From NCBI RefSeq assembly GCF_026241105.1, contig NZ_JAPFFT010000023.1, positions 1 through 64,000 of the forward strand: DNA of 64,000 nucleotides, written 5' to 3'. The stretch comes from Arthrobacter rhizophilus (GTDB taxonomy: Bacteria; Actinomycetota; Actinomycetes; Actinomycetales; Micrococcaceae). The notes below the pieces were generated by a model. It saw nothing but the letters and a program-made list of their open reading frames with translations, made no database searches and was not told where the DNA came from. The translations under genes were made by a program, and so were the position numbers. Below, piece after piece: positions 13,668 through 59,289 of this stretch. Within the stretch, counting starts at the first letter, position 1. Each line of letters begins with the position of its first letter.

Positions 13668-15986
13668 CTAGCCGAAGTACTTCGGCAGTGTGGCCTCGTG
13701 GGCTTCGCTGAGTGCGTCCAAGGACAGCTCGTCCACGCCGTTGATCTCCAACTTGCCGCTGGCAGCGTCGACTACGCCGATCCGGAGGTGGGCGAAGCCG
13801 CGGGCGGTGCACATGTCCTTGAAACGGATTTCCTCGGAGCGCGGAACGGACACGATGGCCCGGCCCTGGGTCTCGGAGAACAATGCGGTGAACAGGTCCA
13901 CGCCGTCGCGCTCCACGAGTTCGTCCAGCGCAATCCGGGCGCCGACGCCGTAGCGCAGCGAGGACTCCACCAGTGCAGCGGCAAGGCCGCCCTCGGAGAG
14001 ATCGTGCGCGGCATCGATCATGCCGTCGCGCGAAGCGTTGATGAGGATTTCGCCGAGCTGGCGCTCGATGGACAGGTCAACCTTTGGCGGCAAGCCACCG
14101 AGGTGTCCGCGCAGGTTGGACCACTCCGAACCGTCCAGCTCCGCGGCCGTGGTGCCCAGCAGGTAGATGGCCTGGCCGTCTTCCTTCCAGCCGGACGGGG
14201 TGCGGCGCGCGACGTCGTCGAGCTTGCCCAAAACGGCCACCACAGGGGAGGGGTGGATCGGCACGGTACCCGTCTGGTTGTACAGGGAGACGTTGCCGCC
14301 GGTGACAGGGACGCCCAGCTCCATGCAAGCGTCGGACAGGCCACGAATGGCCTCGGCCAGCTGCCACATGACGTCAGGGTCCTCGGGGGAACCGAAGTTC
14401 AGGCAGTCGCTGACAGCCATCGGCACGGCGCCGGAGGTGGCGACGTTGCGGTATGCCTCGGCCAGAGCCAGCTGTGCACCGTGGTACGGATCGAGGTAGG
14501 TGTAGCGGCCGTTGGCGTCGGTGGCCAGGGCCACGCCAAGGCCGGTTTCCTCGTCCACGCGGACCACTCCGGCGTCGTCCGGGAACGCCATGGCGGTGTT
14601 GCCGCCGACGTAGCGATCGTACTGCTTGGTGATCCAGGCCTTGCTGCACATGTTCGGCGAAGCAATGAGCTCGGTGACGGCGGCGGCCAGTTCCCCGGAG
14701 GTCGAGGGACGGCCGGCGTCCTGCACGGAGCCAGTGAAGGTATCGGCCTGGACGGAATCCTGCCATGAGGGGCGCGAGTACGGGCGGTCGTAGACCGGAC
14801 CGTCGTGGGCAACGGTGCGCGGGTCGACGTCGACAATGACTTCGCCTTCCCACGTGATGATGAGGCGGCCGGTATCGGTCACTTCACCCAGCCAGGAGTA
14901 CTCTACGGCCCACTTGTCCATGACCGCTTCGAAGGCGGCAATGTTCTCGGGGGTGACAACGGCCATCATGCGTTCCTGGGACTCGGACATCAGGATTTCG
15001 CCCGGGGTCAGAGTGGGGTCGCGCAGCAAGACGGAGGTCAGCTCAACCTGCATGCCGCCGTCGCCGTTGGAGGCGAGCTCGGACGTGGCGCAGGAAATGC
15101 CTGCCGCGCCGAGGTCTTGGATACCCTCAACCAGCGAACCCTTGAACAGCTCCAGGCAGCACTCGATCAGGACCTTCTCGGCGAAGGGGTCGCCCACCTG
15201 GACGGCGGGGCGCTTAGACGGCTTGGTGTCGTCGAAGGACTCCGAGGCCAGCACCGAGGCGCCGCCAATACCGTCGCCACCGGTGCGTGCACCGAACAGG
15301 ACCACCTTGTTGCCCTTGCCGGAGGCGTTGGCCAGGCGGATGTCCTCATGACGCATGACGCCGACTGCCAGCGCGTTGACCAGCGGGTTGCCCTGGTACA
15401 CGGAATCGAACACCATTTCGCCGCCGATGTTCGGCAAGCCAAGCGAGTTGCCGTAGCCGCCGATGCCAGCAACAGCGCCATGCATGACGCGGGCCGTGTC
15501 CGGGTGGTCGATGGCGCCGAAACGCAGCGGATCCATCACGGCAACCGGACGGGCGCCCATGGAGATGATGTCGCGGACAATGCCGCCAATGCCGGTTGCG
15601 GCACCCTGGTAGGGCTCCACGAACGACGGCGAGTTGTGGGACTCGATCTTGAACGTCACGGCCCAGCCGTCGCCAAGGTTGGTGACGCCGGCGTTTTCGC
15701 CAATGCCCACCAGCATGTCCTTCTTCATCTCCTCGGTCACCTTTTCGCCGAACTGGCGCAGGTGGTTCTTCGAGGACTTGTAGGAACAGTGCTCGCTCCA
15801 CATCACGGAGTACATGGCGAGCTCGGCACCGGTGGGGCGGCGGCCCAGCACCTTGACGACCTCGTCGAATTCGTTTTGCTTCAGGCCCAGTTCGGCCCAG
15901 GGGAGCTCGGTGTCCGGGGTCTTGGCTGCGTTCTCGACGGTGTCGATGTTGAACTTCTTGCCGACGGTTTCAGCTGAGGTAGTCAC
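13668..15986 (-). CDS. purL: phosphoribosylformylglycinamidine synthase subunit PurL
   Basis: A 772-aa synthetase subunit of the small PurL type. It makes FGAM from FGAR with ATP and ammonia supplied by PurQ, in complex with PurS. Family blocks include [12 protein letters not shown] near residue 65, [48 protein letters not shown] and a late [12 protein letters not shown]. Length is typical. Its start overlaps the purQ stop by four bases, and it is last in the purS-purQ-purL operon. Confidence 0.97.
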
Positions 15987-45064: not shown

Positions 45065-46282
45065 CTATGCCGCCGTTATGCGCAGCGGGAGGGAGCGCCA
45101 TCCCCGGAGAGTGTTGTGGAGGTACGGCAAGGGCTCGCCCACCAGCTCGATACTCCTAATTCGCTTGGCCATGGCCGTGAAGAGCACGTCCATCTCAAGC
45201 CGGGAAATCGGCTGGCCCACGCATTGGTGGATACCCATGCCGAAGGCGAGGTGGCCGCCGGCGTTGCGGTCGATCATGAATTCGTCGGCCGTGGCTCCCC
45301 AATGTGCGGCATCCCGGTTGGCCGAGCCCATGAAGAGCAGTACCTTGGCTCCTGCCGCCAGTGGGATGCCCCGGAACACAGTGTCCGTTGCAACGGTCCG
45401 GAAGAAGGACTGGAACGGCGATTCATACCGGAGCGCTTCGTCGATCGCGAACTTGGCCAGCCGGGGATTGGCGTGCAAGCTGGCCCACTGCTCCGGGTGC
45501 GCCGCCAAAGCCTGCAACGTGTTCCCGATCGAGAACACTGTGGTATCCAAGCCGGCGGAGAGCATGGCCCGTACTAGCAGGGCTGCCTGTTCGGGCGTGA
45601 TCTCGCCGCGGTCCGCGAATTCCCAGATCTGGGCTCCCATGCCATCCGGGGAGAGGTTTTCCCGGGCGCAATTGTCCATGACCCAGTGGTGGGTGGGTTC
45701 GCCTTTTTCGAAGAACTCGCGGGACCGTTCGTCGTCGGGCCCGAAGGAGCTGAAGTTCATGGCTCCGTGCGGGAGCAGATTGGATTCGCGGCCTTCGCGA
45801 GGGATTCCGACGGCGTCGCCAAAGACGCGGATGGGAAACAACTCGGCGAGGTCCGTGACGCCGTCGAAAGTTTCCCGCTCGATGAGGCTGTCCACGAGCT
45901 CCTCGGCGAACTCCTCAAACCGGGCCCTCAGGGAGCGCACTCCGCGGGGAGAAATGACACCCGCCATTGCTGCGCGCATGGGTCCGTGGACGGGGGGATC
46001 AGATTCCAGGATGCCTTGCGGACGCCAAGCGGGCTCGTGGTGCAGATTCTTGGGGCCCACGCCAGCACTTGAGATGAATGTGCGGTAGTCCTCCAGGATC
46101 TCCTTGCATTCCTCGAAACGGGCGAAGGCCAGGACCCCGTATTTCTCAAGCCACACTGCGGGTCCGGCCGCCCGCATGCGTTCGAACAGGGGATACGGAT
46201 TGGTGAGGCTCCTGTCCGTGTAGGGATCGTCCTGCAGACCAGAGAGTACGGGAATGGTTTGCGGGGGAGTGCTGAGTGACAT
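45065..46282 (-). CDS. cytochrome P450
   Basis: A 405-aa soluble bacterial P450. The oxygen-binding helix has SAGLDTT. The K-helix ExxR is EALRYES, and the haem-binding loop is FGMGIHQCVGQPISRLE with Cys354. Length is typical of class I enzymes, which need a separate electron donor. The reductase at 48958 is the obvious candidate. The ATG at 46282 is chosen over 46294 because TGAGG lies six bases upstream. It diverges from the IclR gene. The substrate is unknown; hydroxylation or O/N-demethylation is possible. Confidence 0.92.
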   Translation of the reverse strand: MSLSTPPQTIPVLSGLQDDPYTDRSLTNPYPLFERMRAAGPAVWLEKYGVLAFARFEECKEILEDYRTFISSAGVGPKNLHHEPAWRPQGILESDPPVHGPMRAAMAGVISPRGVRSLRARFEEFAEELVDSLIERETFDGVTDLAELFPIRVFGDAVGIPREGRESNLLPHGAMNFSSFGPDDERSREFFEKGEPTHHWVMDNCARENLSPDGMGAQIWEFADRGEITPEQAALLVRAMLSAGLDTTVFSIGNTLQALAAHPEQWASLHANPRLAKFAIDEALRYESPFQSFFRTVATDTVFRGIPLAAGAKVLLFMGSANRDAAHWGATADEFMIDRNAGGHLAFGMGIHQCVGQPISRLEMDVLFTAMAKRIRSIELVGEPLPYLHNTLRGWRSLPLRITAA

Positions 46283-46403
46283 CGTGGGCCTCATTACCGT
46301 CGATTTTTGCTGAGATCCAATCTGCGGGCCAACCCTGCAAAGGGCCGGACAAGCGGATTCGTGGCATCAAAGTATCGGTCTCAAAGAGCAACGGTTAAAC
46401 ATC

Positions 46404-46422: not shown

Positions 46423-46507
46423 CTGGTTTGTCGCAAAGCATTGCCGCCCTGCACGATCAGTTCGTGACCCGCGACGCAGGGTGATCGATCCAGAAAGGAG
46501 GCACACC

Positions 46508-47299
46508 GTGGCAACCCACACTTCATTTGAACGGGGCCTCATGATCCTCTCGGAAATCGCAGACAGCGGAGATGCCACCGTGGAGGGGGTGGCGCTCAAG
46601 CTGGGCATTCCCGTGAGCACCACCTATCGCTACTTTCGCCAGCTTCGAGAGCGTGGATTCGTCCAGGAGGACGCGGGCATCTATCGGCCGGGGCACGCGC
46701 TGTTGGCCTTGTCCGGACGGCACCTGACGCAGAGCCATCTCGCCGAAGTTGGCACGGCTGTGCTAAAAAGCATCGTGGATGCCGTGGGCGAAACCGCCGT
46801 GATGGTGATCCGGGTGGGTACGCAGGCCATGTGCCTGCGCCGCGCGGAACCGGACAAGGCCTTCAAATACACTTTCGCCGTCAATGAGCTCCTGCCGCTG
46901 ACGGCGGGCGCCGGCCCCCGGACGCTGCTCGCGTGGGCGCCGTCCGACGTCGTACGCCAAGTGCTCGACGGCGACCTTCCGCGCTTCACTGAAAACTCGC
47001 CGTCCGCGGAGCAGATTCTGCTCAGCCTGGCGCAGATCCGATCTTCCGGCTGGGCAGTGTCCCGGGGCGAGCTGGATCCAGGCGCCGTCTCGGTTGCCGT
47101 GCCAGTGATGTTCGACGGCGAGGCCGTATGCGCGCTCAACGTGGCCGGCCCGGAGAACCGCTGCGGGTCCCGGGCCTGGCTGAATTCGACTTTGAAGACA
47201 ATGAACGAGGCAGCGGAGAACCTGGCGGCGTCGCTAGGTTCGCTCGCAAGCCGCAGAACAACCCGAGAGGTAAGCGATGACGCTCGAAACTCTGCTTGA
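46508..47299 (+). CDS. IclR-family regulator of the catabolic island
   Basis: A 263-aa regulator. The GTG at 46508 is six bases after AAAGGAGG, and the longer frame to 46307 covers the promoter. The N-terminal winged helix is TSFERGLMILSEIADSGDAT then GIPVSTTYRYFRQLRERGFV. The effector domain spans about 80-250 (LLPLTAGAGPRTLLAW, SRGELDPGAVSVAVPV). The coding end overlaps the lyase start by 23 bases, so the three genes are cotranscribed. IclR proteins usually sense the pathway substrate. Confidence 0.9.
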   Translation: MATHTSFERGLMILSEIADSGDATVEGVALKLGIPVSTTYRYFRQLRERGFVQEDAGIYRPGHALLALSGRHLTQSHLAEVGTAVLKSIVDAVGETAVMVIRVGTQAMCLRRAEPDKAFKYTFAVNELLPLTAGAGPRTLLAWAPSDVVRQVLDGDLPRFTENSPSAEQILLSLAQIRSSGWAVSRGELDPGAVSVAVPVMFDGEAVCALNVAGPENRCGSRAWLNSTLKTMNEAAENLAASLGSLASRRTTREVSDDARNSA

Positions 47300-48977
47300 T
47301 ACAGCACCGGTGGTCCTGGGGACGCACCGTGCAACCCTGCAGGATCTGATCCAGGTTGCGCGCCACCGGCGTCCCGTCGTGGTGGATGAGCAAGCCTTGG
47401 CGCGGATGAAGCCCAGCCAGGACTGGCTGGACGCCGTCATGGATGACATGCGGGCCGGGAAGGAAACGGCGCCGATCTACAGCATCAATACCGGCTTTGG
47501 TTCCCTCGCCGGCCGCAAGGCCTTCGACGAGCCGTCCGACGCCGCCGAGCTCTCCCGGCGCCTGGTCCTCTCCAACGCTGCCGGCGTCGGCCGCTATGTG
47601 GACGAAGAGGTGGTGCGGGCAACCATGTTCATCCGCATCGTCAGCCTGACGCAGGGCTACTCCGGCGTGCGGGCGGACATCGTGAAGACCCTCGCCGAGA
47701 TGCTCAACCGCGGCGTGTACCCGGCTATCCCTGAATACGGTTCCCTGGGCGCTTCCGGCGACCTCATCCCGTTGGCCCACGTGGCGATTGTCATGTCGCG
47801 CTCCTACACTGGCGAGGACGAGGAACTCGACTCCGGCGAGGCCTTTGTGGACGGTGCCGTGGTGTCCGGGATCGCGGCCATGGCTCACGCGGGAATCGAA
47901 CGGCTGCCGCTGGGCGCCAAGGACGGCCTAGCCCTTTTGAACGGCACTTCTTTCTCCTGCGCCCAGGCTGCGCTGGCCTTGTTCGACGCCCAGAACCTCC
48001 TCGAAACTGCCCAGATCACCGCGGCCATGACCATCGAGGCACTTCTGGGTTTCGGCGATGCTTTCATTGACGAGCTCCACCAAGCCCGCGGCCAGCGTGG
48101 CCAGATCGAGGTGGCTGCGCGGTTGCGCGAGCTCCTCTCCGGCAGCGGGTTGGTGGACGGCGACGCCGGACGGGACCCTGTGCGGCAGCCGCCCCAAGAC
48201 GCATACTCGCTGCGGTGCATTCCGCAGGTTTTCGGCCCGGTCAAGGACACTTTAGGGTTCGCGGCCGGCATCATCGACAACGAGATCAATGCCGCCACGG
48301 ACAACCCCCTGATCTTCCCGTCGCTGCCTTCCACCCGCACGCTCAAGGCGGTCTCGGGCGGCAATTTCCACGCCGAGTACGTAGCGTTCGCGGCAGACTT
48401 CATCTCGATTGTGGTCACCGAAATCGGCAACATCACGGAGCGCCGGCTCTTCAGGCTCGACGACGGCACCCTCAACCGGGGCCTTCCGGACATGCTCGTT
48501 GCCAGCGAACAGATCGGTATGGACTGCGGCTACATGCTGCCCCAGTATCTTGCCGCCGCCTTGGTATCCGACTGCAAGACCCTCGCGCACCCGGACAGCG
48601 TGGACTCAATCCCGACGTGCGCCAACCAGGAAGACCACGTGTCCATGGCCAACAACGCCGGGCGGCATGCACGCCAGATTGTCACCAACATCGAGTCTGT
48701 AGTGGCCGTGGAGCTGCTGATGGCTGCGCAGGCCTTGGAACTACGGATGGGCATGTCCGCCACGGCCGGGGCAAAACCTGCCGCTGCGAGCCTGGCCGCA
48801 CTGGCCCTCCTGCGTTCCACCGCGGCGGCCGACGGCCGGGCAATCGACCACATTAGGCAGGACGTTGTCCTGTATCCGCGGCTACGCAAAGCCGGGGAAT
48901 TGGTCCACGCCGGCGCCGTGGTGGCCGCCGTGAACGCCGCGATCGGCGGAGGCAGCGATGACGCTCCAGGCCACTGA
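47277..48977 (+). CDS. HAL/PAL-family aromatic amino-acid ammonia-lyase, atypical
   Basis: A 566-aa MIO enzyme that removes ammonia from an aromatic amino acid to leave the enoate. The self-cyclising triad Ala159-Ser160-Gly161 is in GASGDLIPLAH. Other catalytic segments are kept: YSINTGFG (Tyr68), LLNGTSFS, QDAYSLRCIPQV and CANQEDHVSM. The histidase substrate ligand, His83 in Pseudomonas putida HAL within LSHAAG, is Asn100 here (LSNAAG). It is longer than HAL (about 510) by an N-terminal segment and a C-terminal stretch. No hutU, hutI or hutG is nearby. It is coupled to the IclR gene and overlaps the reductase gene by 20 bases. Confidence 0.88.
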   Translation: MTLETLLDTAPVVLGTHRATLQDLIQVARHRRPVVVDEQALARMKPSQDWLDAVMDDMRAGKETAPIYSINTGFGSLAGRKAFDEPSDAAELSRRLVLSNAAGVGRYVDEEVVRATMFIRIVSLTQGYSGVRADIVKTLAEMLNRGVYPAIPEYGSLGASGDLIPLAHVAIVMSRSYTGEDEELDSGEAFVDGAVVSGIAAMAHAGIERLPLGAKDGLALLNGTSFSCAQAALALFDAQNLLETAQITAAMTIEALLGFGDAFIDELHQARGQRGQIEVAARLRELLSGSGLVDGDAGRDPVRQPPQDAYSLRCIPQVFGPVKDTLGFAAGIIDNEINAATDNPLIFPSLPSTRTLKAVSGGNFHAEYVAFAADFISIVVTEIGNITERRLFRLDDGTLNRGLPDMLVASEQIGMDCGYMLPQYLAAALVSDCKTLAHPDSVDSIPTCANQEDHVSMANNAGRHARQIVTNIESVVAVELLMAAQALELRMGMSATAGAKPAAASLAALALLRSTAAADGRAIDHIRQDVVLYPRLRKAGELVHAGAVVAAVNAAIGGGSDDAPGH

Positions 48978-50025
48978 TGCAGTCAACCCGGGCACTGCGG
49001 TGCTCGCCGCAAAAGGCTTTTTCCAGCTAACGGTCAGCGAGCTCCGGAGGGAGGCGGACGGCATCGTTTCGGTGATTCTCAAGGATCCCGACGGCGGTGC
49101 ACTGCCGGTATGGGAGCCGGGCGCCCACATCGATGTGCTGTTTTCCAACGGAATGCTGCGCCAATACTCGTTGTGCTCTGAGCCTGCGGATCGGTTCGCG
49201 TGGCGTGTCGCGGTGTTGCGTGAGCAACCCAGCCGGGGCGGCTCGAGCTTTGTCCATGAGGTGTTGCGGGCCGGGGATGTCCTCGATGTCCGGGGCCCCA
49301 AGAACAATTTCCGGGGCACAGCGGGTTCGGGGGAGAAGGTCTTCATCGCCGCCGGGATCGGAATCACGCCCCTGCTGCCGATGATCCGCGCAGCGAAGAT
49401 GACCGGTGAGCCCTGGAGACTGCTGTATTTGGGGTCCAAACCCCATTCCATGGCTTTCCTGGACGAGATCACCGGTCTTGACCCCGATGGGACCAAAACC
49501 AGGATCCATGCCAAAGAGGTTTCCGGCCCCCTGGACCTGGCGGAGTACCTTCGCAGCGAGGGACTCGCGGCGGACTCAACGGTCTACGCCTGCGGCCCGC
49601 CGCGGTTGCTCAGCGAGCTCCGCTCGGCCCACGAGGCCGGCGCGGTTCCGCAGCTGCTCTTTGAGGACTTCGGTCGCGACGAGCCCGACGCCGGGACTGG
49701 CCCAGGCGGTTCCGTCCCCGCCGGTTCCGGTCAGGAATTCGGGGACGCCGCCCGCGAGAACTTGCCTTTCGTGGTTGAAACCGCTGACGGAATTGAAATT
49801 GAGGTTGCGGAAAACGAGACAATTCTCGATGCCCTGCAGCGATCAGGAGTTCCCGCGTTGAATTCCTGCCGAAAAGGAACGTGTGGGACGTGTGAAACGC
49901 TAGTTCTAGCTGGAATTCCAGATCATCGTGATGAAATTCTCAGTGACGAAGAACGTGCCGCAAATGAAACAATGATGATTTGTGTTTCACGCTGCCGCGG
50001 GGAGAGGTTGGTGCTGGAACTCTAA
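48958..50025 (+). CDS. PDR/VanB-type flavin and 2Fe-2S oxidoreductase
   Basis: A 355-aa electron-transfer protein. The flavin site is RQYSLCSE (about 63-70), the NAD site GIGITPLLPMI (about 135-145) and the YACGPPRLL loop follows. The C-terminal plant-type ferredoxin has Cys304, 309, 312 and 342. This order (flavin, NAD, 2Fe-2S) is that of phthalate dioxygenase reductase and of the reductase part of CYP116B P450s. It probably feeds the P450 at 45065. The ferredoxin domain is encoded by unusually AT-rich DNA (24 G/C of 60 at 49921-49980). A linker of about 25 Gly/Ser/Pro-rich residues precedes it. Confidence 0.9.
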   Translation: MTLQATDAVNPGTAVLAAKGFFQLTVSELRREADGIVSVILKDPDGGALPVWEPGAHIDVLFSNGMLRQYSLCSEPADRFAWRVAVLREQPSRGGSSFVHEVLRAGDVLDVRGPKNNFRGTAGSGEKVFIAAGIGITPLLPMIRAAKMTGEPWRLLYLGSKPHSMAFLDEITGLDPDGTKTRIHAKEVSGPLDLAEYLRSEGLAADSTVYACGPPRLLSELRSAHEAGAVPQLLFEDFGRDEPDAGTGPGGSVPAGSGQEFGDAARENLPFVVETADGIEIEVAENETILDALQRSGVPALNSCRKGTCGTCETLVLAGIPDHRDEILSDEERAANETMMICVSRCRGERLVLEL

Positions 50026-50348: not shown

Positions 50349-51257
50349 TTGAATATTTCTGAATTTTCCCTCCGTAAGCCGGCCCTCGCGGCCATTGCAC
50401 TCGCCGCCGTCGTAGGACTTACCGCTTGTGGCGGTTCGGCCAGTGCGGGTGGGGACGCAAGCGCGGCGGCAAATGCGGCAAAGGCGCCGCTCTTCAGCCA
50501 GTTGCCCAAAGAGATCCAGGGCGCGGGCACCATCAAGGTGGCCAGCAACGTTGAGTACCTTCCGTTCGAGTCCATTGACAAGGACGGAAAGACCATTGTA
50601 GGGATCGACCGTGAGCTCGCGGACGCCATCGAGAAGAAGCTCGGCGTTACCCTCGCCTTCGACAACATCGCTTTTGACGCGATCATCCCGGGCCTGGCGT
50701 CCGGCCGCTATGACATGGGCATGTCCGCGATGTCGGACACTCCCGAGCGCCAGAAGCAGGTCAGCTTCCTGGACTACTTCTCGGCAGGCGCGGGCATCAT
50801 GACCACCAAGACCAACCCGCACAATGTGAAGTCGCTGGATGATCTGTGCGGCGCAAAGGTGGGCATCGTCAAGGGCACCACCGAGGATGCCGACGCCGCG
50901 GCCCAGTCCAGCAAGTGCCAGGCCGCGGGGAAGGAGCAGCTCGCCATCACCATCTATGCCGGGCAGAACCAGGCAGTACTGGCGCTGCAGAGCGGACGGG
51001 TGGACGCCTTCCTGCTTGATACGACGTCAGGTTCCGTGGTTGCCGCCGAGAGCAACGGTGACTTGGTGATGGGCAAGCCGTACCAAGAGGGATTCTTCGG
51101 CATCGTGTTCCCCAAGGACAGCACGGACCTGATCAACGTGGTGCAGAAGGCCATGGAGCAGATCAAGGCAGACGGTACCTATAAGTCGATCCTTACCAAG
51201 TACAAGATGGATGACCACGTCATTGAGAAGTTCACTGTCAACGGAGCCACCAAATGA
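50349..51257 (+). CDS. amino-acid ABC transporter substrate-binding lipoprotein
   Basis: A 302-aa binding protein of the polar amino-acid family (SBP family 3). The TTG start follows AAGGAG. The lipoprotein signal ends LAAVVGLTAC (Cys27). Ligand-domain motifs include IKVASNVEYLPFESIDKDGK and GIDRELADAIEKKLGV, then ASGRYDMGMSAMSDTPERQK. It has an extra Cys pair (DLCGAKVG and SSKCQAAG) that may form a disulfide. Its stop overlaps the permease start. The substrate is likely the amino acid or analogue degraded by the island. Confidence 0.92.
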   Translation: MNISEFSLRKPALAAIALAAVVGLTACGGSASAGGDASAAANAAKAPLFSQLPKEIQGAGTIKVASNVEYLPFESIDKDGKTIVGIDRELADAIEKKLGVTLAFDNIAFDAIIPGLASGRYDMGMSAMSDTPERQKQVSFLDYFSAGAGIMTTKTNPHNVKSLDDLCGAKVGIVKGTTEDADAAAQSSKCQAAGKEQLAITIYAGQNQAVLALQSGRVDAFLLDTTSGSVVAAESNGDLVMGKPYQEGFFGIVFPKDSTDLINVVQKAMEQIKADGTYKSILTKYKMDDHVIEKFTVNGATK

Positions 51258-52234
51258 CCCTGTACACGGCTACGGAGGAGGAGCAGAACCTCTCGATCGT
51301 CCCTGCCCGCTACCGCGGGCGCTGGGTTATGGCAGGGGTGGTGGTCCTTGGCGTAGCGCTCATGGCCTATGGCATGGTCACCAACCAACGGTTCCAGTGG
51401 GGCACGGTGGGAGAATACCTGTTCGCCGCTCCGGTGCTGGCCGGCTTGGGCAATACGCTGATGCTGACCGCCGTTTCGATGGCCATCGGCATTGTCCTGG
51501 GAATCGCTGTGGCTGTGTGCCGCCTGTCCCCGAACCCCATACTTTCCTCCGCTGCGTGGGCCTACTCCTGGTTCTTCCGCGGCACCCCGCTCATGGTCCA
51601 ACTCCTGTTCTGGTTCTTCATGGCGGCGTTGGTCCCGAAGCTGGTGCTGGGCGTTCCCTTCGGCCCCAGCTTCTTCGAGATCTCCACGAATACCCTGATC
51701 TCCCCGTTCACTGCGGCCATCTTGGGCCTGAGCCTCAACGAAGGCGCGTACATGGGTGAGATTGTCCGCTCCGGCATCCGGGCCATCCCGGTGGGCCAGA
51801 CCGAGGCAGCCAAGGCAATGGGAATGACGAGGCTGCAGACCATGCGCCGCGTCATCCTCCCGCAGGCCATGCGTGTCATCATCCCGCCCACCGGCAATGA
51901 GACCATCGGCATGCTCAAGTACACCTCGCTGGTGATCGTCATCGGCTATAGCGAACTCTTGACATCGGTTTCGATCATCTACTCGCGCACGTTCCAGACC
52001 ATTCCGCTGCTGATCGTGGCGGCACTTTGGTACCTGGCTGTCACAGCAGTCCTGTCCGTAGGCCAGTACTACGTGGAACGGCACTTCGAACGGGGCTTCA
52101 CACCACTGAAAGCCGCCAAAGCACTCCCGAAAACCGCGGCGAACGTCCTGTTGAAGGCCGGTCTCCCGCCGGCGTCGAGCGCCTCTTTGGCGATGCCAAG
52201 CGGATCCGCAGAAGAACTGGAGAAGGTCAAGTGA
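51254..52234 (+). CDS. amino-acid ABC transporter permease (HisM/GlnP type)
   Basis: A 326-aa permease with a cytoplasmic N-terminus of about 20 residues and five or six spans. Family blocks are [40 protein letters not shown] and the EAA loop [20 protein letters not shown]. It is a single permease gene and so probably works as a homodimer. It is linked by ATGA to the binding protein and by GTGA to the ATPase. The long C-terminal tail after the last span is soluble. Confidence 0.93.
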
Positions 52235-52998
52235 AGGAACCAATCGTACGGGCGCGGGACATCCGCAAGTCGTTCGGCCATCTTGAGGTCCTCAAAGGCA
52301 TCAGCCTGGATATCAATGCGGGCGAGGTCGCGTGCCTGCTGGGGCCGTCAGGCTCGGGAAAGAGCACGTTCCTCCGTTGTATGAACCACTTGGAAAAGAT
52401 CGACGGTGGCCAGCTTTGGGTCCAGGGTGAACGGATCGGGTACCGGCGCTCCGGGAACAAGCTCCACGAGCTCAAGGAGCACGAGACCGCGAAGCAACGC
52501 GCCTCGATCGGCATGGTCTTCCAGCAGTTCAACCTCTTTCCACACCGCACCGCCTTGGAAAACGTGATCGAAGGTCCCACCGTGGTCCAGCGCGTCCCGA
52601 AGGAGCAGGCCGTCGAGGAAGGCCGGCAGTTGTTGGCACGCGTCGGCCTCGCGGACAAGGCGGACCACTACCCGGGCCAGCTCTCGGGCGGCCAGCAGCA
52701 ACGGGTGGCGATCGCACGCTCGTTGGCGCTCAAGCCTTCGGTCATGCTTTTCGACGAGCCCACCTCGGCGCTGGATCCAGAGCTCGTGGGCGAGGTGCTG
52801 GACGTGATGCGCTCGCTGGCGGACTCAGGCATGACGATGATTGTGGTCACCCATGAGATGGGCTTCGCCAAGGAAGTCGGCAACGTGGTCCACTTCATGG
52901 CCGACGGGCAGCTCGTGGAAAGCGGCGATCCGCACCAAGTCCTCGAAGACCCGCGCGAGCCGCGGACCCAGGCATTCCTGTCCAAGGTCCTTGCATGA
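52231..52998 (+). CDS. amino-acid ABC transporter ATP-binding protein
   Basis: A 255-aa ATPase of the GlnQ/HisP group. Walker A is GPSGSGKST, the Q-loop is FQQFNLFPH, the signature is [15 protein letters not shown], Walker B is [13 protein letters not shown] and the H-loop is VTHEMGFA. The GTG at 52231 sits on the permease stop; the longer frame to 52027 lies inside the permease gene and is rejected. Its own stop overlaps the next start (ATGA), tying the importer to the fusion enzyme. Confidence 0.95.
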
Positions 52999-55526
52999 GC
53001 AGTCCGGCACAGTTGGGGGCGTTGCTGACGGGCCCTGAAGTGGAGCGCACTGTCGAGAGCCCGACGGCGGTCCCTGCCGTCGCCGTCGAACTCCAGCAGG
53101 CGCTGGGTGGCAAGGTCGCCGTCGATACTGCCGCCCGCACTGCCCGTTCACATGACCGTTCGCACCTTCCATCAGGGCTGCCGGACGCCGTCGTGCGTCC
53201 CTCCTCCACGGAAGATGTTGCGACAGCGGTGCGGATCTGCGCCGCGCACGGCGTGGCGGTGGTACCGATCGGGGCCGGAACAGGGCTCGAAGGAGGTGCC
53301 AACGCCCGGGCCGGGGTGGTCACGATCGACCTTTCAGGGATGACCGGAATCCCTCGCCTTAGCCCGGCGGATCTGGATGTCACGGTTCAGGCCGGAGTGA
53401 TGAAGAGCGCCCTCAACGCGGAGCTGGATCCCTATGGCCTGTTCTTCCCTGTGGGCCCGGGCGTTGACGCCAGCGTCGGTGGCATGTGCTCCACGCGCGC
53501 CAGCGGCACCACGGCCGTCCGCTATGGGACGATGCGGGAAAGCGTCTTGGGCCTGACGGTGGTTCTTGCCAACGGCGAAATTGTGCGCACGGGCGGCCGG
53601 GCGAGGAAATCCGCGGCCGGTTACGACCTCACGCATCTCTTCGTCGGCGCGGAGGGCACGCTCGGGATCATTACCGAGGTGACGCTCCGCGTCTACGGCC
53701 AACCGCAAGCGGTCTCGGCCGCCGTGTGCGGCTTTCCTTCGATCGAGGCGGCTTCCCTGGTGGTGCAGGAAGCCATCCAAGCGGGGATTCCGTTGGCTCG
53801 TGTGGAGTTGCTGGATGACGCTACCATTGCCGCCGTCAACGCCTACTCCGCGCTGGAATTGCCCGGAACTGCCAGCTTGCTGTTCGAGTTCCACGGGACT
53901 CCACGTGCAGTGGAGGAGCAGGCGGGACAAATCCGGGCTATCGCCGTCAGGCACGGTGGCAGCGGCTTCGAATTCGCCACGGAGGCGACGGACCGCCAGC
54001 GGCTATGGCAGGCCCGGCACGATGTCCTGCCGGCTTGCCAGGCCCTCGTGGACGGCGCGCACACCTGGTCGACGGATGTGTGCGTACCCATCTCACGGCT
54101 TGCCGAATGCATCGCCGCCACCAAGGAGGACATCGTGGCCTCGGGACTGGTTGCCCCGATTGCCGGGCATGCGGGCGACGGAAATTTCCATCTTGCCATT
54201 GTCCTCAAACCCGGGGACGACGATGCCTTGGCAGAGGCCTCGGCCCTGAACCGGCGGCTCGTGGCCCGTGCCCTCTCGATGGGAGGCACCTGCACGGGCG
54301 AGCACGGCATCGGTGCAGGCAAAATGGATTCACTCCGCGCCGAACATCCCGCCGGCGTGGCAATCATGGCCGCCATTAAGGCAGCCTTGGACCCGGGCAA
54401 CTTGATGAACCCCGGCAAGGTCCTGGCTCCCGACCCTGCTTCCCGGTACGTTTCGCAGACTCCCGTGGGCCAGTCGGCGCGTCCCGCGCCTCGACCCGAG
54501 ATCGCCGCGCTCCCGAGCTACTCCCGGGCCTCAGGCTTGGGCGGCGTCACCTGGGTGGCGTCTTCAAACGAGTCTTCCGTGCCGCCGTCGTCCGCCGTCC
54601 AGAACGCCATGGCCGCGGCGGCCGCCGGGCTGAACCGCTACCCGAGCCTCTTTGGCGACGAACTGGTGGCAGTGATCGCACGGCGGTTAGGGCTCGCGGA
54701 TGAGCAAGTGATGGTGGGGGCGGGCTCCTTGTCCCTTCTCCAGCAGTTGCTCACGGCGTACACCGGGCCGGGCACCGAGGTGGTTCATGCCTGGCGCAGC
54801 TACGAGGCATATCCCATTCTGGTGACCGTGGCAGGGGCGTCAAGCGTTCGGGTGGCGCTCGACGCCGGGCTCGGGCATCGGCTGGACGCCATGGCGGACG
54901 CGATCACAGAGCGCACGAAAGCGCTGATTGTCTGCAACCCGAACAACCCCACCGGAACCGTGATCCGGCACGATGAACTGGTTCGTTTCCTCAGCCATGT
55001 ACCCGGAAACGTGCTGGTGGTGCTCGATGAGGCCTACCGCGAATTCACCCAACCGGAAGAGGACGAAGTAGCCCTGCTGGAAACGTTCCCCAATGTGGTG
55101 GTCCTTCGGACATTCTCCAAGGCCTACGGGCTCGCCGGCGCGCGGGTTGGTTACCTGACGGCGACTCCGGAAATTGTTGGCAATCTGCGGAGGTCGGCAC
55201 TGCCGTTCGGCCTGAGCAGGGTGGCCGAGGCCGGGGCTGTCTCAGCCTGGGCCGAAGAGGAACTCCTGCACGCCACTGTCTCGGCAGTTGTCGCCGAACG
55301 GGAATTCCTGGCCGGGGAACTGCGGAGACGGGGCCTGGAGGTGCCGGAAAGCGGTGGGAACTTCTTGTGGATCGCGATGGAGCAGGCGCGGGAATTGGAG
55401 CAAGCGTGTGTTCTCCACGGCGTTTCCGTCCGGGCGTTCGACGGCGAAGGGGTGCGTGTGACCGTCGGCGGACGTGGGGCGTCGCGGGCCGTCCTCGCAG
55501 CGGTGGACTCGTTTCTCCGGCGGTGA
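52995..55526 (+). CDS. fusion of FAD-linked 2-hydroxyacid oxidase and HisC/Pat-type aminotransferase
   Basis: An 843-aa protein in one uninterrupted frame. Residues about 45-480 are a glycolate/D-lactate dehydrogenase-type flavoenzyme ([80 protein letters not shown]). A linker of about 30 residues follows. Residues about 515-843 are a fold-type I aminotransferase of the histidinol-phosphate/aromatic group ([22 protein letters not shown] Lys709 in [16 protein letters not shown]). The last gene of the transporter operon, it could convert a 2-hydroxy acid to a keto acid and then to an amino acid without releasing the intermediate. Such a fusion is unfamiliar to me. Confidence 0.9.
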
Positions 55527-56750: not shown

Positions 56751-58334
56751 CTACTTCTCCCACGGAGCTTTGACCGGGAAGTACTTCTCCATGAAGTCCG
56801 TCACGAGGCCGGCCCGTTCGTCGGCAGCCACCTCCGGGAAGCTGCCGTCGTTAAGGCAGAAGAAGTCCACGTTGCGTTTCGCCAGCAGCGTCGGCAAGTA
56901 ATGCAGCCCGGACCACAGCGTGGTGTCAACGTACCGGACTTTCGCGGCCGTCTGCGTCACTGCACGCCCGGTGAGCAGCGAATAGTAGTGGTAGAACGAG
57001 TTGGTCACGGAGATGTTGTCCGCCGCGCGGAACCTGCTGGCTGCCGTCTTGGTGAACTCGGCCGGAAACTCGTGCTCCATCTCGGCGATCACACTGCGGC
57101 GCAACGGAGCGGCGGTGTGCTCCAAATGGCGGGTGGTGATGCGACCGAACCGCTCCCAGAGGAGCTTCCTGTTGACGCGTGCGGCGTTCTCGAAGCCGCT
57201 GCGTTCGGCGTCGTTCTCTCCCAGTCCAATCCGGGTGGAGGCCTCGATGAACTTGGTGATTCCGCCGGGAGTGAAGAACATGTCCGGCGCTACGGGGCGG
57301 CCGAAGAACATGTCGTCGTTGGAATACAGGAAGTGCTCGGACAAGTCCTCAATGTGGTGCAGTTGGGATTCCACGGCCTGCGAGTTATGCGTTGGCAGTA
57401 CTGAGGTGTCCTTGAAGAACTCCTCGCTGCGCATGATCCTCACGTCCGGGTGTTCGGCCAGCCACTCCGGCGCGGGGGAGTCAGTGGCGATGTAGATCCG
57501 GCGAATCCAGGGCGCATACATGTACACGGAGCGCAGGGCGTATTTGAGCTCGTTAATTTGCCGGAAGCGGGCCTCGTGGGCGTCACCCTCCCCAAGGACG
57601 ACGTCCTTCATCTGCTCGCGGCGGGCCGCGATGTAGGCGGGGTCGTTGCCGTCCACCCACGAAAAGACGATGTCGACGTCGAAGTCGATGTCGCTCGCGT
57701 GGTCCGCGAACATGTTCTCGATGGTTGGCCAGCTCAGCCCGTGGCGATTCACTGTGCCCCGGACGGCGTCCTGGCGCAGCATGGTTCGCCGGGTCAGCGA
57801 GTTCTCTACGGGCAACACGAGTTGATCGCCGTCGAATTCCCACAATTCCAGTTGTACGCCGAGGGAGGGTCCGTAGGTCAACCCGCCTCCAGGTTCCACG
57901 CGTGGACGGAAGAGCCTGAAGATCCGGGCCTTTCGGTTGCTGGAGAGCTCGCCGTCCGCCACCAGCAGCGTGGATTTCTTCCGGGCATCAACGGTCATGG
58001 AGTAGAACGGTTCGTTCCGGAAGGCGGTGACCAAAGCCTGGCGCAGCTTCTTCCGGAGCTTCCAATCTACTGCGATCACTGGCCGATGATCGTTGCCGCG
58101 GACCAGGATGAAATCCAGTCCCGCCGCGTCCAACGCAGCGCGAATGAAGAGGAGATCTTCGACCATTACTTGCTGCGGAGTGCGGTTCTGGTTCAGCAAG
58201 CTGTATCGGCCACGATGGCGGATGACGTCGGCGCGGTGCTTGAGGCGCGCGTCGACGGCGGGCGACGTCGGTTCCGGAACGACCGCGTCGTCGTCCGAGG
58301 GGGGACTACCGAAGTAAATCGCTTGCTGGTCCAT
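56751..58334 (-). CDS. Stealth-family sugar-phosphate transferase
   Basis: A 527-aa protein of the Stealth group, relatives of GlcNAc-1-phosphotransferase that build phosphodiester-linked wall or capsule polysaccharides. Conserved regions: DIVFSWVDGNDPAY (CR1), RQINELKYALRSVYMYAPWI with IYIATDSPAPEWL and FLYSNDDMFFG (CR2), and CR3/CR4 in the last 170 residues (GLHYLPTLLAKRN). The first 200 residues are an extra N-terminal region. The ATG at 58334 is used; the longer frame overlaps the HAD gene and is a shadow. It follows the HAD gene by 43 bases in the same direction. Confidence 0.88.
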   Translation of the reverse strand: MDQQAIYFGSPPSDDDAVVPEPTSPAVDARLKHRADVIRHRGRYSLLNQNRTPQQVMVEDLLFIRAALDAAGLDFILVRGNDHRPVIAVDWKLRKKLRQALVTAFRNEPFYSMTVDARKKSTLLVADGELSSNRKARIFRLFRPRVEPGGGLTYGPSLGVQLELWEFDGDQLVLPVENSLTRRTMLRQDAVRGTVNRHGLSWPTIENMFADHASDIDFDVDIVFSWVDGNDPAYIAARREQMKDVVLGEGDAHEARFRQINELKYALRSVYMYAPWIRRIYIATDSPAPEWLAEHPDVRIMRSEEFFKDTSVLPTHNSQAVESQLHHIEDLSEHFLYSNDDMFFGRPVAPDMFFTPGGITKFIEASTRIGLGENDAERSGFENAARVNRKLLWERFGRITTRHLEHTAAPLRRSVIAEMEHEFPAEFTKTAASRFRAADNISVTNSFYHYYSLLTGRAVTQTAAKVRYVDTTLWSGLHYLPTLLAKRNVDFFCLNDGSFPEVAADERAGLVTDFMEKYFPVKAPWEK

Positions 58335-58377
58335 GACTGTGATGGCTTTTCTCCGAAGGGTTGTGGGAAGCGTGGAC

Positions 58378-59289
58378 TCAGCCCACCAAGGCTTCACGCC
58401 AGCTGCGCAGGAATGCGCCGCCGGCGTCGTCGTGAATGACGTCCTCGCCCAGGCCGAGGTCTGTGGCTGTAAGAACATCGTAGGGCTTGTTGGGCACACC
58501 GTCTGCGGGACGGACGTCGATGTGCTTGACGCTGTGGTCATTGTGGTGGAGCCAATCAGCCATCGCGTAGTCGGTGCGCGAATCGCCCACTGTGCGCCAA
58601 GCCTGCGGGGTGATTCCTTGGGCCGCGAGCAGTTCCACCGCGCGGCTGGCGCCGAGATCCTTGCCGAGCCGGATGGACTCGATGTCCGTGGAGATGATGG
58701 TGGGATCCAGGCGGTAGTCAGCGGCGTCGTCGGACCCTGGTGCGTGGTGGTCGAGGAGCGCGGCAGAGAGTCCGTGCCGGCCCATGAGTTCCAATGCGTC
58801 GGCGTCGAAGAGCTTCTGCTCGGCCAGGTAGTCGTCGCTTGAGACGTCCAGATGCTGCTCCACGGACACCATGGCCCTCTTGGTCTCATCGAAGAACATG
58901 TGCGTTGCGTAGTCCTCCGCCACCATGCGGCGGACGTCGTCGCCGTACGCTTTCGGAACAGCGAGTTCAGGGTCCACGTGGATCGGGCCGGGGCCGCCCG
59001 AGGTGTAGCTGAACCACACGGCGCCTTTTTCGCAGATCGCGTGGACAACAGTTCCTGCGGGCATCCCGGCGGCGATCATGGGGGCCATGACCTGCTCGCG
59101 GATGAAAGCGTCGGAACGGCCGGTGTTGAAAATGACCGGAATGCCTGCGGACGCCAAACTGACAAGATCGGCGATGATTTCCGGCTTCACGTCGCGCGTC
59201 ACGGGACTCGCGACGGGGCCGTCGACGTCGAGGAGGAGTGCGAGGGCGGGAGCAGCCGAGTGCGCGGTGCCTGGCATTGGAGCAGTCAT
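58378..59289 (-). CDS. HAD-superfamily phosphatase
   Basis: A 303-aa hydrolase. The nucleophile motif is LLDVDGPV (Asp21 and Asp23), motif II is FNTGRSD (about 54-60) and motif IV is VGDSRTDYAMADW (about 230). The C2-type cap between them places it near Cof or sucrose/trehalose-phosphate phosphatases. Operon position before the Stealth gene suggests it handles a sugar phosphate related to that polymer, which is an inference. A second ATG at 59277 is possible. Confidence 0.85.
   Translation of the reverse strand: MTAPMPGTAHSAAPALALLLDVDGPVASPVTRDVKPEIIADLVSLASAGIPVIFNTGRSDAFIREQVMAPMIAAGMPAGTVVHAICEKGAVWFSYTSGGPGPIHVDPELAVPKAYGDDVRRMVAEDYATHMFFDETKRAMVSVEQHLDVSSDDYLAEQKLFDADALELMGRHGLSAALLDHHAPGSDDAADYRLDPTIISTDIESIRLGKDLGASRAVELLAAQGITPQAWRTVGDSRTDYAMADWLHHNDHSVKHIDVRPADGVPNKPYDVLTATDLGLGEDVIHDDAGGAFLRSWREALVG

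Follow-up and report, generated by a model that had tools for sequence, protein, structure and literature searches.

Bacterial degradation of imidazolyllactate is reportedly known from Pseudomonas, in which Coote and Hassall (about 1969-1973) are said to have traced it via imidazolylpyruvate and histidine. Flavin-linked dehydrogenases of the LDHD type use a respiratory electron acceptor and work in the direction of the oxo acid. According to excerpts of PMC11530827, the cytochrome P450 enzymes PbdA and CYP199A4 act as O-demethylases on para-methoxybenzoates, slower N-demethylation of para-substituted benzoates is described for CYP199A4, and CYP199A enzymes act on planar aromatic acids. For the Paracoccus yeei plasmid pLM20P5, separate histidine and vanillate modules were described by its authors (excerpted text of PMC4447125). 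Herein, we describe a locus in a 64,000-nucleotide stretch of Arthrobacter rhizophilus DNA (contig NZ_JAPFFT010000023.1, positions 1 to 64,000; hereafter the window) at which a single frame, on the forward strand at 52995-55526, joins a flavin-dependent dehydrogenase to an aminotransferase. From its families and gene context, we consider it reasonably probable that this fusion protein converts a D-2-hydroxy acid to an L-amino acid in two steps within a histidine-type catabolic operon, acting on an imidazole substrate that is probably N-methylated.

The frame comprises 843 codons from ATG to TGA, contains zero internal stops, and shares 4 bases of its start with the stop of an upstream ATP-binding cassette (ABC) ATPase gene. 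Three Pfam domains lie along it, i.e., FAD_binding_4 (residues 63-200, 124 bits; cut-off 26.4), FAD-oxidase_C (residues 237-476, 211 bits; cut-off 21.2), and Aminotran_1_2 (residues 526-824, 152 bits; cut-off 19.7), confirming an earlier note that had read a flavoenzyme followed by an aminotransferase from this single frame. Lys709, proposed in that note to bind pyridoxal phosphate (PLP), is likewise in place within a motif that begins at residue 706, together with NPNNPTG (from residue 648), LDEAY (677), and GVRVTVG (819), for which we assume the residue roles of HisC-type enzymes. The flavin half carries GHAGDGNFH (from residue 391) and TGEHGIG (from residue 434), which resemble the metal/active-site motifs of D-2-hydroxy-acid dehydrogenases; H392, H399, E436, and H437 are nearly invariant (alignment A1). 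The last homologous stretch of the flavin half, NPGKVL, reaches residue 477, and aminotransferase homology begins at approximately residue 499-500, leaving a linker of about 22 residues (478-499) in place of the approximately 30 previously claimed.

On the matches obtained, assignment of the N-terminal half as an LDHD-type D-2-hydroxy-acid dehydrogenase and of the C-terminal half as a HisC/Pat-type aminotransferase is sound by family. The flavin half has the LDHD-type domain composition, with both FAD_binding_4 and FAD-oxidase_C above their cut-offs. Among the best 60 of 152 structure matches, its top solved relative is the D-lactate dehydrogenase 8jdc (420 bits, residues 31-477), followed, as the next different molecule, by a glycolate oxidase at 245 bits; the top solved relative of the aminotransferase half is 4r2n, a putative phenylalanine aminotransferase (229 bits, residues 499-828), and no solved chain among these covers both halves. 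Narrower functional models were not reached by either half, with the flavin half at 310.1 bits for the GlcD equivalog TIGR00387 (cut-off 567.9) and the aminotransferase half at 258.3 bits for the HisC equivalog TIGR01141 (cut-off 276.55); the latter half does pass NF002878 (PRK03321, HisC2/Pat-like) at 390.7 bits against a curated cut-off of 374. These families support the earlier suggestion that the two activities could plausibly be joined through a common 2-oxo acid. In an AlphaFold model of the fusion (21 alignment rows; mean predicted local distance difference test score, pLDDT, of 63.6), the flavin half was mostly well modelled and the aminotransferase half fell largely below 60 because few alignment rows cover it; we draw no claim from the model as to packing of the two halves. 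No described enzyme with FAD_binding_4, FAD-oxidase_C, and Aminotran_1_2 in this order was found in the literature searched, which took in few subscription journals and did not extend to domain-architecture databases.

Matches were found in four of 206 Arthrobacter genomes searched at a threshold of E 1e-95, which more divergent pairs would escape. Three of these (the window's genome, G557, and G529) have the fused form and the fourth (G455) a split one. The fused orthologues of G557 and G529 are each 839 aa long, at 91% and 89% identity, respectively, to the window protein; contigs of G529 and of Arthrobacter sp. AZCC_0090 show no difference across 19.9 kb, and we thus counted these two as one genome. 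In G455, the halves (87% and 81% identical) are adjacent but in different frames, with a 95-base overlap from the first possible start; by our reading of the bases, the aminotransferase frame could begin at a TTG, or at an ATG that follows an AGGACAGG-like site and lies 71 bases ahead of the flavin stop. The earlier note had pointed to a stop or frameshift near codons 480-515 as the finding that would undo the fusion. None is present in three genomes, the fusion being intact in G557 and G529 with a gap-free linker; in G455 alone, the halves do lie in different frames at this place. G455 branches first in the aminotransferase tree (44 rows), with 96/72 for the remaining three genus rows, and falls inside the fused rows (85/72) in the flavin tree; both trees are midpoint-rooted and carry long-branch warnings.

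Beyond the genus, the matches listed for 396 genomes of the order (E 1e-60 or better) and for 396 genomes of the phylum (E 1e-100 or better) contained no fusion besides that of the window. A scan of genome contigs covering at least 80 loci returned one full-length fusion (AZCC_0090) and two loci with separate frames (L022 and L023), with no aminotransferase found at the other 77. Among plasmids, 13 records had one place spanning at least 80% of the query, and each of the seven examined (H1-H6 and H8) encodes two genes. In Specibacter cremeus, the dehydrogenase and aminotransferase genes are also unfused, with a 4-base overlap. An Acidobacteria locus (L042) that initially matched over residues 23-812 proved to contain the flavin half alone and was rejected as a fusion.

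Both halves of the fusion are under purifying selection: across the three fused genes, the ratio of nonsynonymous to synonymous substitution rates (dN/dS) is 0.12-0.14 for the flavin half and 0.19-0.24 for the aminotransferase half, compared to 0.5-1.2 for the gap-free 22-codon linker. The fusion appears to have arisen locally, within a single genus, as an addition to a two-gene unit. The earlier note had taken the fusion by itself to imply channelling of a 2-keto acid between the two sites, a claim that we find unsupported; channelling is not required, as G455 and Specibacter have the two genes as separate frames within an operon of matching order, and the short linker is under almost no constraint.

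The surroundings of the fusion, unused in the earlier note, are the most informative clue to its function, in the form of a second histidine ammonia-lyase (HAL) in the operon and of hut-linked relatives elsewhere. All four genus genomes share one gene order, namely a divergent P450 gene followed by genes for an IclR regulator, the lyase (herein HAL-B), a reductase, a solute-binding protein, a permease, an ATPase, the dehydrogenase, and the aminotransferase. HAL-B passes the subfamily model PRK09367 (536.7 bits; cut-off 524) and falls short of the HutH equivalog TIGR01225 (517.1 bits; cut-off 539.15), with 338 bits for a tyrosine aminomutase model, 296 for a tyrosine ammonia-lyase, and 261 for phenylalanine ammonia-lyase. 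It retains the equivalents of Y53, N195, Y280, R283, F329, M382, and E414; the position of His83 in the Pseudomonas putida HAL is Asn in all five HAL-B sequences and His in the 13 other HALs aligned. At E 1e-130, the window's own HAL-B was the sole match in 396 phylum genomes, a threshold from which its spread is not deducible. Elsewhere in the window's genome, a urocanase gene and a canonical-type second HAL gene lie side by side on another contig, and G000, G455, and G557 each contain one urocanase, encoded outside the fusion operon.

The linkage to histidine catabolism extends to relatives of the aminotransferase half, which lies outside the sampled Pat sequences. In a single 100/100 clade, the four genus rows group with those of Specibacter, G170, and G211, distinct from the order's Pat rows, from the Pat-like and HisC rows of the window's own genome, and from Rhodobacterales rows. 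All seven sampled members of this clade are encoded within approximately 9 kb of a histidine ammonia-lyase, four of them via the operon described above. In Specibacter, genes for an IclR regulator, a transporter, and the enzyme pair adjoin those for HutF, HutI, HutU, and a HAL 70% identical to HAL-B; in G170, the aminotransferase and histidine ammonia-lyase genes abut; and in G211, matches to HutH, HutU, HutF, and HutI begin approximately 8.4 kb away. The latter two genomes were selected because they gave the strongest remaining aminotransferase matches in the order, without regard to neighbouring genes. As a control, none of the 77 other LDHD-type loci of the contig scan (52 of which have at least 8 kb on both sides) showed HutH/HutU or an aminotransferase in the DNA retrieved; under this test, L021 and L023 scored positive on both counts, and L022 on the aminotransferase alone. 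Two further loci stand apart: G041 encodes an adjacent aminotransferase and GlcD-like pair in opposite order, on long branches off the clade, and was set aside as a separate thing; G106 has a flavin gene 50% identical, with kinship to Specibacter (90/80) on a long branch of the flavin tree, and no hut-query match within 19 kb of it. The Specibacter genome (G977) also contains three HAL-type and three urocanase matches (contigs C2, C33, C61, and C78), of which one pair, on C2, is divergent and possibly serves other histidine derivatives.

We propose the following sequence of steps. The ABC transporter would import the substrate. The LDHD-like half, judging from its family, would oxidise imidazole D-lactate, plain or N-methylated, to the corresponding imidazolepyruvate. 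The PLP-dependent half would then aminate the latter, probably from glutamate, to yield L-histidine or N-methyl-L-histidine, as its family and tree position suggest, and HAL-B would strip off ammonia to give (methyl)urocanate. The CYP199-like P450 and the reductase may take off the N-methyl group as formaldehyde, either before or after the lyase step. If HAL-B makes methylurocanate, the methyl must leave before urocanase, because G000, G455, and G557 each have one urocanase. The ordinary Hut enzymes, whose genes lie at other sites in the genome, would complete the breakdown. Joining the two enzymes would provide a 1:1 ratio and proximity, while remaining dispensable for the pathway. The fusion, the operon, their conservation, and the ties to HAL and hut genes are observed, and the substrate class is inferred from context with the above control behind it; the N-methylated form of that substrate is the weaker part of the proposal.

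The methyl part of the proposal draws on the P450, on formaldehyde dehydrogenases of the Rhodobacterales clusters described below, on the Asn of HAL-B, and on the urocanase count. The position of the P450 gene is kept in all four genus genomes. The P450 matches PbdA (9g9q) at 381 bits and CYP199A4 (4dnz) at 351 bits; matches of the neighbouring reductase to PaaE/BenC-type models fall below cut-off. Relative to PbdA (residue numbers from the excerpted PMC11530827), Arg84 and Arg236 are kept, and Ser87, Ser237, and Val288 are replaced by Gly, Ala, and Phe, which makes another acid the likely substrate. The carboxylate-binding Arg84/Ser87/Ser237 set of PbdA, taken as a mark of CYP199A benzoate demethylases, is thus incomplete, with the first serine less sure owing to a one-residue gap two residues from it in the alignment.

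Rhodobacterales have comparable pairs, six of them on plasmids and one in Gemmobacter aquatilis (L022). In each, the dehydrogenase gene, at 46-51% identity to the flavin half, precedes an aminotransferase gene at 30-35%. Each of the seven is accompanied by a VanA-type Rieske oxygenase with its reductase, by a LysR regulator, and by a solute-binding protein of the peptide type, and hut genes occur near six of the seven: they are annotated close to the pair in P. yeei pLM20P5, Leisingera, Pseudohalocynthiibacter, P. seriniphilus, and Mameliella, and are indicated in G. aquatilis through a hutF match alone. A glutathione-dependent formaldehyde dehydrogenase is annotated in three of the seven (Leisingera, Pseudohalocynthiibacter, and P. 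seriniphilus), the plasmid gene tables being incomplete. The one oxygenase searched scored 144 bits to dicamba O-demethylase, the closest solved protein with a named substrate (154 bits to the unnamed Rieske protein 7qwt), with weak matches to the N-demethylases NdmA (59 bits) and NdmB (53 bits). Rhodobacterales and Arthrobacter rows form separate clades in both trees, suggesting that D-hydroxy-acid dehydrogenases and HisC-like aminotransferases came together next to hut genes on more than one occasion. The presence of two unrelated demethylase-type oxygenases alongside this type of two-gene unit would fit one substrate class, that of N-methylimidazole acids. We tentatively raise the broader possibility of an unrecognised catabolic route for N-methylated imidazole D-lactates, assembled independently at least twice (with a P450 in Arthrobacter and a Rieske oxygenase in Rhodobacterales), the first two enzymes of which became fused in some Arthrobacter; a single gene cluster would then handle the hydroxy acid, the methyl group, and the histidine skeleton.

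Several of these clusters merit separate description. On P. yeei pLM20P5 (L159, 5064-25386), the dehydrogenase/aminotransferase pair, a VanAB-like oxygenase, a deacylase, an ABC transporter, and hut genes share one small plasmid; as this cluster is probably one pathway, its "vanillate demethylase" may be misnamed. The Pseudohalocynthiibacter hut/oxygenase cluster (L161) also encodes, at 13759-14898, a DSD1-family PLP enzyme that may serve a D-amino or hydroxy-amino acid. Gemmobacter fulvus was left out of the seven because its pair is in reverse order and its flavin gene very divergent; its hut genes lie approximately 25-30 kb from the pair, with formaldehyde dehydrogenase, gfa, and methylaspartate-pathway genes. 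There, plasmid p2 (L165, 1-10997) encodes hutH/G/U, then formaldehyde dehydrogenase, gfa, and methylaspartate mutase/ammonia-lyase genes, an arrangement suggestive of a histidine-to-glutamate-to-mesaconate route that also disposes of formaldehyde. In Specibacter (L023, 4052-5140), an S-(hydroxymethyl)mycothiol dehydrogenase gene (671 bits; cut-off 512.9) near the pair suggests formaldehyde; it is separated from the transporter genes by approximately 2.2 kb that include the IclR gene and one further frame, and may be there by chance.

A number of observations weigh against an N-methylated imidazole substrate or against parts of the argument for it. CYP199 enzymes act on benzoates and are not known to act on imidazoles. 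Specibacter has no close CYP199 (best 30% identity) and no close Rieske protein (best 30% over part), from which it follows that demethylation is not general to the pair, and no urocanase match was obtained in G529, perhaps due to an assembly gap. As the Rhodobacterales aminotransferases are only 30-35% identical to that of the window, their context is an analogy; moreover, the stretch viewed of P. methylovorus is devoid of hut genes, and the hutF-like match of G. aquatilis lies at the edge of the fetched DNA, in which HutH/HutU were negative. Within the DNA viewed, P. yeei, P. methylovorus, and Mameliella have no annotated formaldehyde dehydrogenase, and G. aquatilis gave no match to one. The Asn of HAL-B comes from an alignment in which four of the five HAL-B rows are of one genus and more divergent HAL-type matches were left out, and the HutH proteins of five Rhodobacterales clusters keep His83. 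According to excerpts of PMC11432326, a His-to-Leu change at the equivalent site abolished histidine activity in the Geobacillus HAL, whereas similar mutants of the P. putida HAL retained some; Asn at this position need not therefore signal another substrate. The same excerpts cite N-tau-methylhistidine as a HAL substrate.

The alternative closest to our proposal keeps the chemistry and removes the methyl, such that D-imidazolelactate would be converted to L-histidine while the P450 and reductase serve some other purpose, e.g., hydroxylation of a co-occurring aromatic acid. The HAL residues retained in HAL-B would suit this, as would the Specibacter pair, which has HAL, HutU, HutI, and HutF at hand and lacks the close oxygenases. 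We nonetheless regard it as unlikely, given that the P450 and reductase remain with the operon in all four genomes, that the reductase gene overlaps that of HAL-B, that a second HAL beside a canonical HutH would be redundant, and that His83 has become Asn, a position bearing on histidine activity in the Geobacillus enzyme but not in that of P. putida. An aromatic substrate is less probable still; here, D-phenyllactate or a methoxylated relative would yield a Phe/Tyr-type amino acid, from which the lyase would form a cinnamate for O-demethylation or para-hydroxylation by the CYP199-like enzyme. Such a route would draw on the Pat-like NF002878 score, on the match to 4r2n, and on the taste of CYP199A enzymes for planar aromatic acids (excerpts of PMC11530827). 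It is at odds with a lyase that scores 537 and 517 bits with two HutH models versus 338/296/261 with the aminomutase, tyrosine, and phenylalanine lyase models, whose Specibacter relative sits in a hut cluster, and with an aminotransferase clade tied to HAL and hut genes; the two carboxylate-binding serines of the benzoate-specific PbdA are, in addition, Gly and Ala in the window P450.

Flow in the opposite direction, allowed for in general terms in the earlier note, would here mean that L-histidine is transaminated and imidazolepyruvate reduced to imidazolelactate. Aminotransferase steps are generally reversible, but flavin-linked LDHD-type enzymes are, as noted at the outset, respiratory oxidases running toward the oxo acid, and the uptake transporter, lyase, and hut linkage all indicate catabolism; we thus hold reversal to be very improbable. 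That the fused frame is an assembly or sequencing artefact, as the two frames of G455 might hint, has a negligible chance of being true, being refuted by the same fusion in two independent genomes at 89-91% identity. The remaining question concerns the fusion alone and is compatible with the two-step converter that we prefer: a change of frame may simply have joined neighbouring genes without any benefit. To this we give even weight on either side. The unfused genes of G455 and Specibacter, the nearly unconstrained linker, and the fused state of only three of 206 genus genomes at E 1e-95 all fit a passive merger, against which stands its retention in three strains whose genes diverge, in both halves, at 20-25% of synonymous sites.

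The features of the locus are collected in Table 1. A promoter and terminator scan gave signals at or below chance. Downstream of the fusion, a frame on the reverse strand of the window (56751-59048) contains the stretch FSWVDGNDP, which may be of the kind found in Stealth-type sugar-phosphate transferases.

Table 1. Features of the fusion locus, in window coordinates, with the basis for each call.
Feature	Position	Strand	Basis
CYP199-like cytochrome P450, divergent from operon; probable demethylase	45065..46294	-	PF00067; 9g9q, 4dnz
IclR-family regulator	46481..47299	+	profile match; start set from G455 homologue
HAL-B, second histidine ammonia-lyase-like enzyme	47277..48977	+	PF00221, 530.5 bits
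Flavin/2Fe-2S reductase; likely P450 electron donor	48958..50025	+	PF00111; 20-base overlap with HAL-B as called
Amino-acid-type ABC solute-binding protein	50349..51257	+	PF00497
ABC permease, polar amino acid type	51254..52234	+	PF00528; TIGR01726 above cut-off
ABC ATPase, GlnQ-like	52231..52998	+	profile matches; start set from G455 homologue
Fusion protein, 843 aa	52995..55526	+	open frame; fused orthologues in G557, G529/AZCC_0090
Flavin half (FAD_binding_4 + FAD-oxidase_C)	53181..54422	+	Pfam, solved relatives, motif positions
Linker, residues 478-499, weakly constrained	54426..54491	+	motif positions, dN/dS
Aminotransferase half, residues 500-843; PLP lysine K709 (codon 55119-55121)	54492..55523	+	Pfam, NF002878, 4r2n, tree

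Methylated imidazolelactate occurs in animals. Imidazolelactate or imidazolelactic acid is also mentioned in papers on plasma, urine, and honey, and the genes described herein are candidates for bacterial use of imidazolelactate and, probably, methylimidazolelactate. They further offer one reading for the hut clusters of marine and soil plasmids in which genes are named "D-lactate dehydrogenase", "HisC", and "vanillate demethylase", and the presence of fused and unfused forms in close relatives constitutes a natural experiment on the benefit of joining consecutive enzymes.

Ultimately, components of this locus can be compared with described counterparts. The flavin half aligns with the LDHD/mitochondrial-type D-lactate dehydrogenase 8jdc over residues 31-477 with its motifs kept; unlike the latter, it is joined to an aminotransferase in a histidine-type operon, with a substrate that is predicted. 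The aminotransferase half shares with HisC2/Pat-type enzymes (NF002878, 4r2n) the PLP lysine and other motifs, yet falls in its own HAL-tied clade and below the HisC equivalog cut-off. HAL-B may be of the kind treated in an earlier lyase study, from which N-tau-methylhistidine is cited as a HAL substrate in excerpts of PMC11432326. The P450, with a reductase gene close by, resembles the PbdAB/CYP199A4 benzoate demethylases but differs at the positions of Ser87, Ser237, and Val288 of PbdA. On P. yeei pLM20P5, D-lactate dehydrogenase-like, HisC-like, VanAB-like, and hut genes likewise occur together, though unfused and distantly related. The Pseudomonas imidazolyllactate route would proceed through the same sequence, in which a hydroxy acid becomes an oxo acid, then histidine, and then urocanate; its dehydrogenase is said to be NADP-linked and to act on the L-form, whereas that of the window is a flavin-linked D-type enzyme fused to its aminotransferase.

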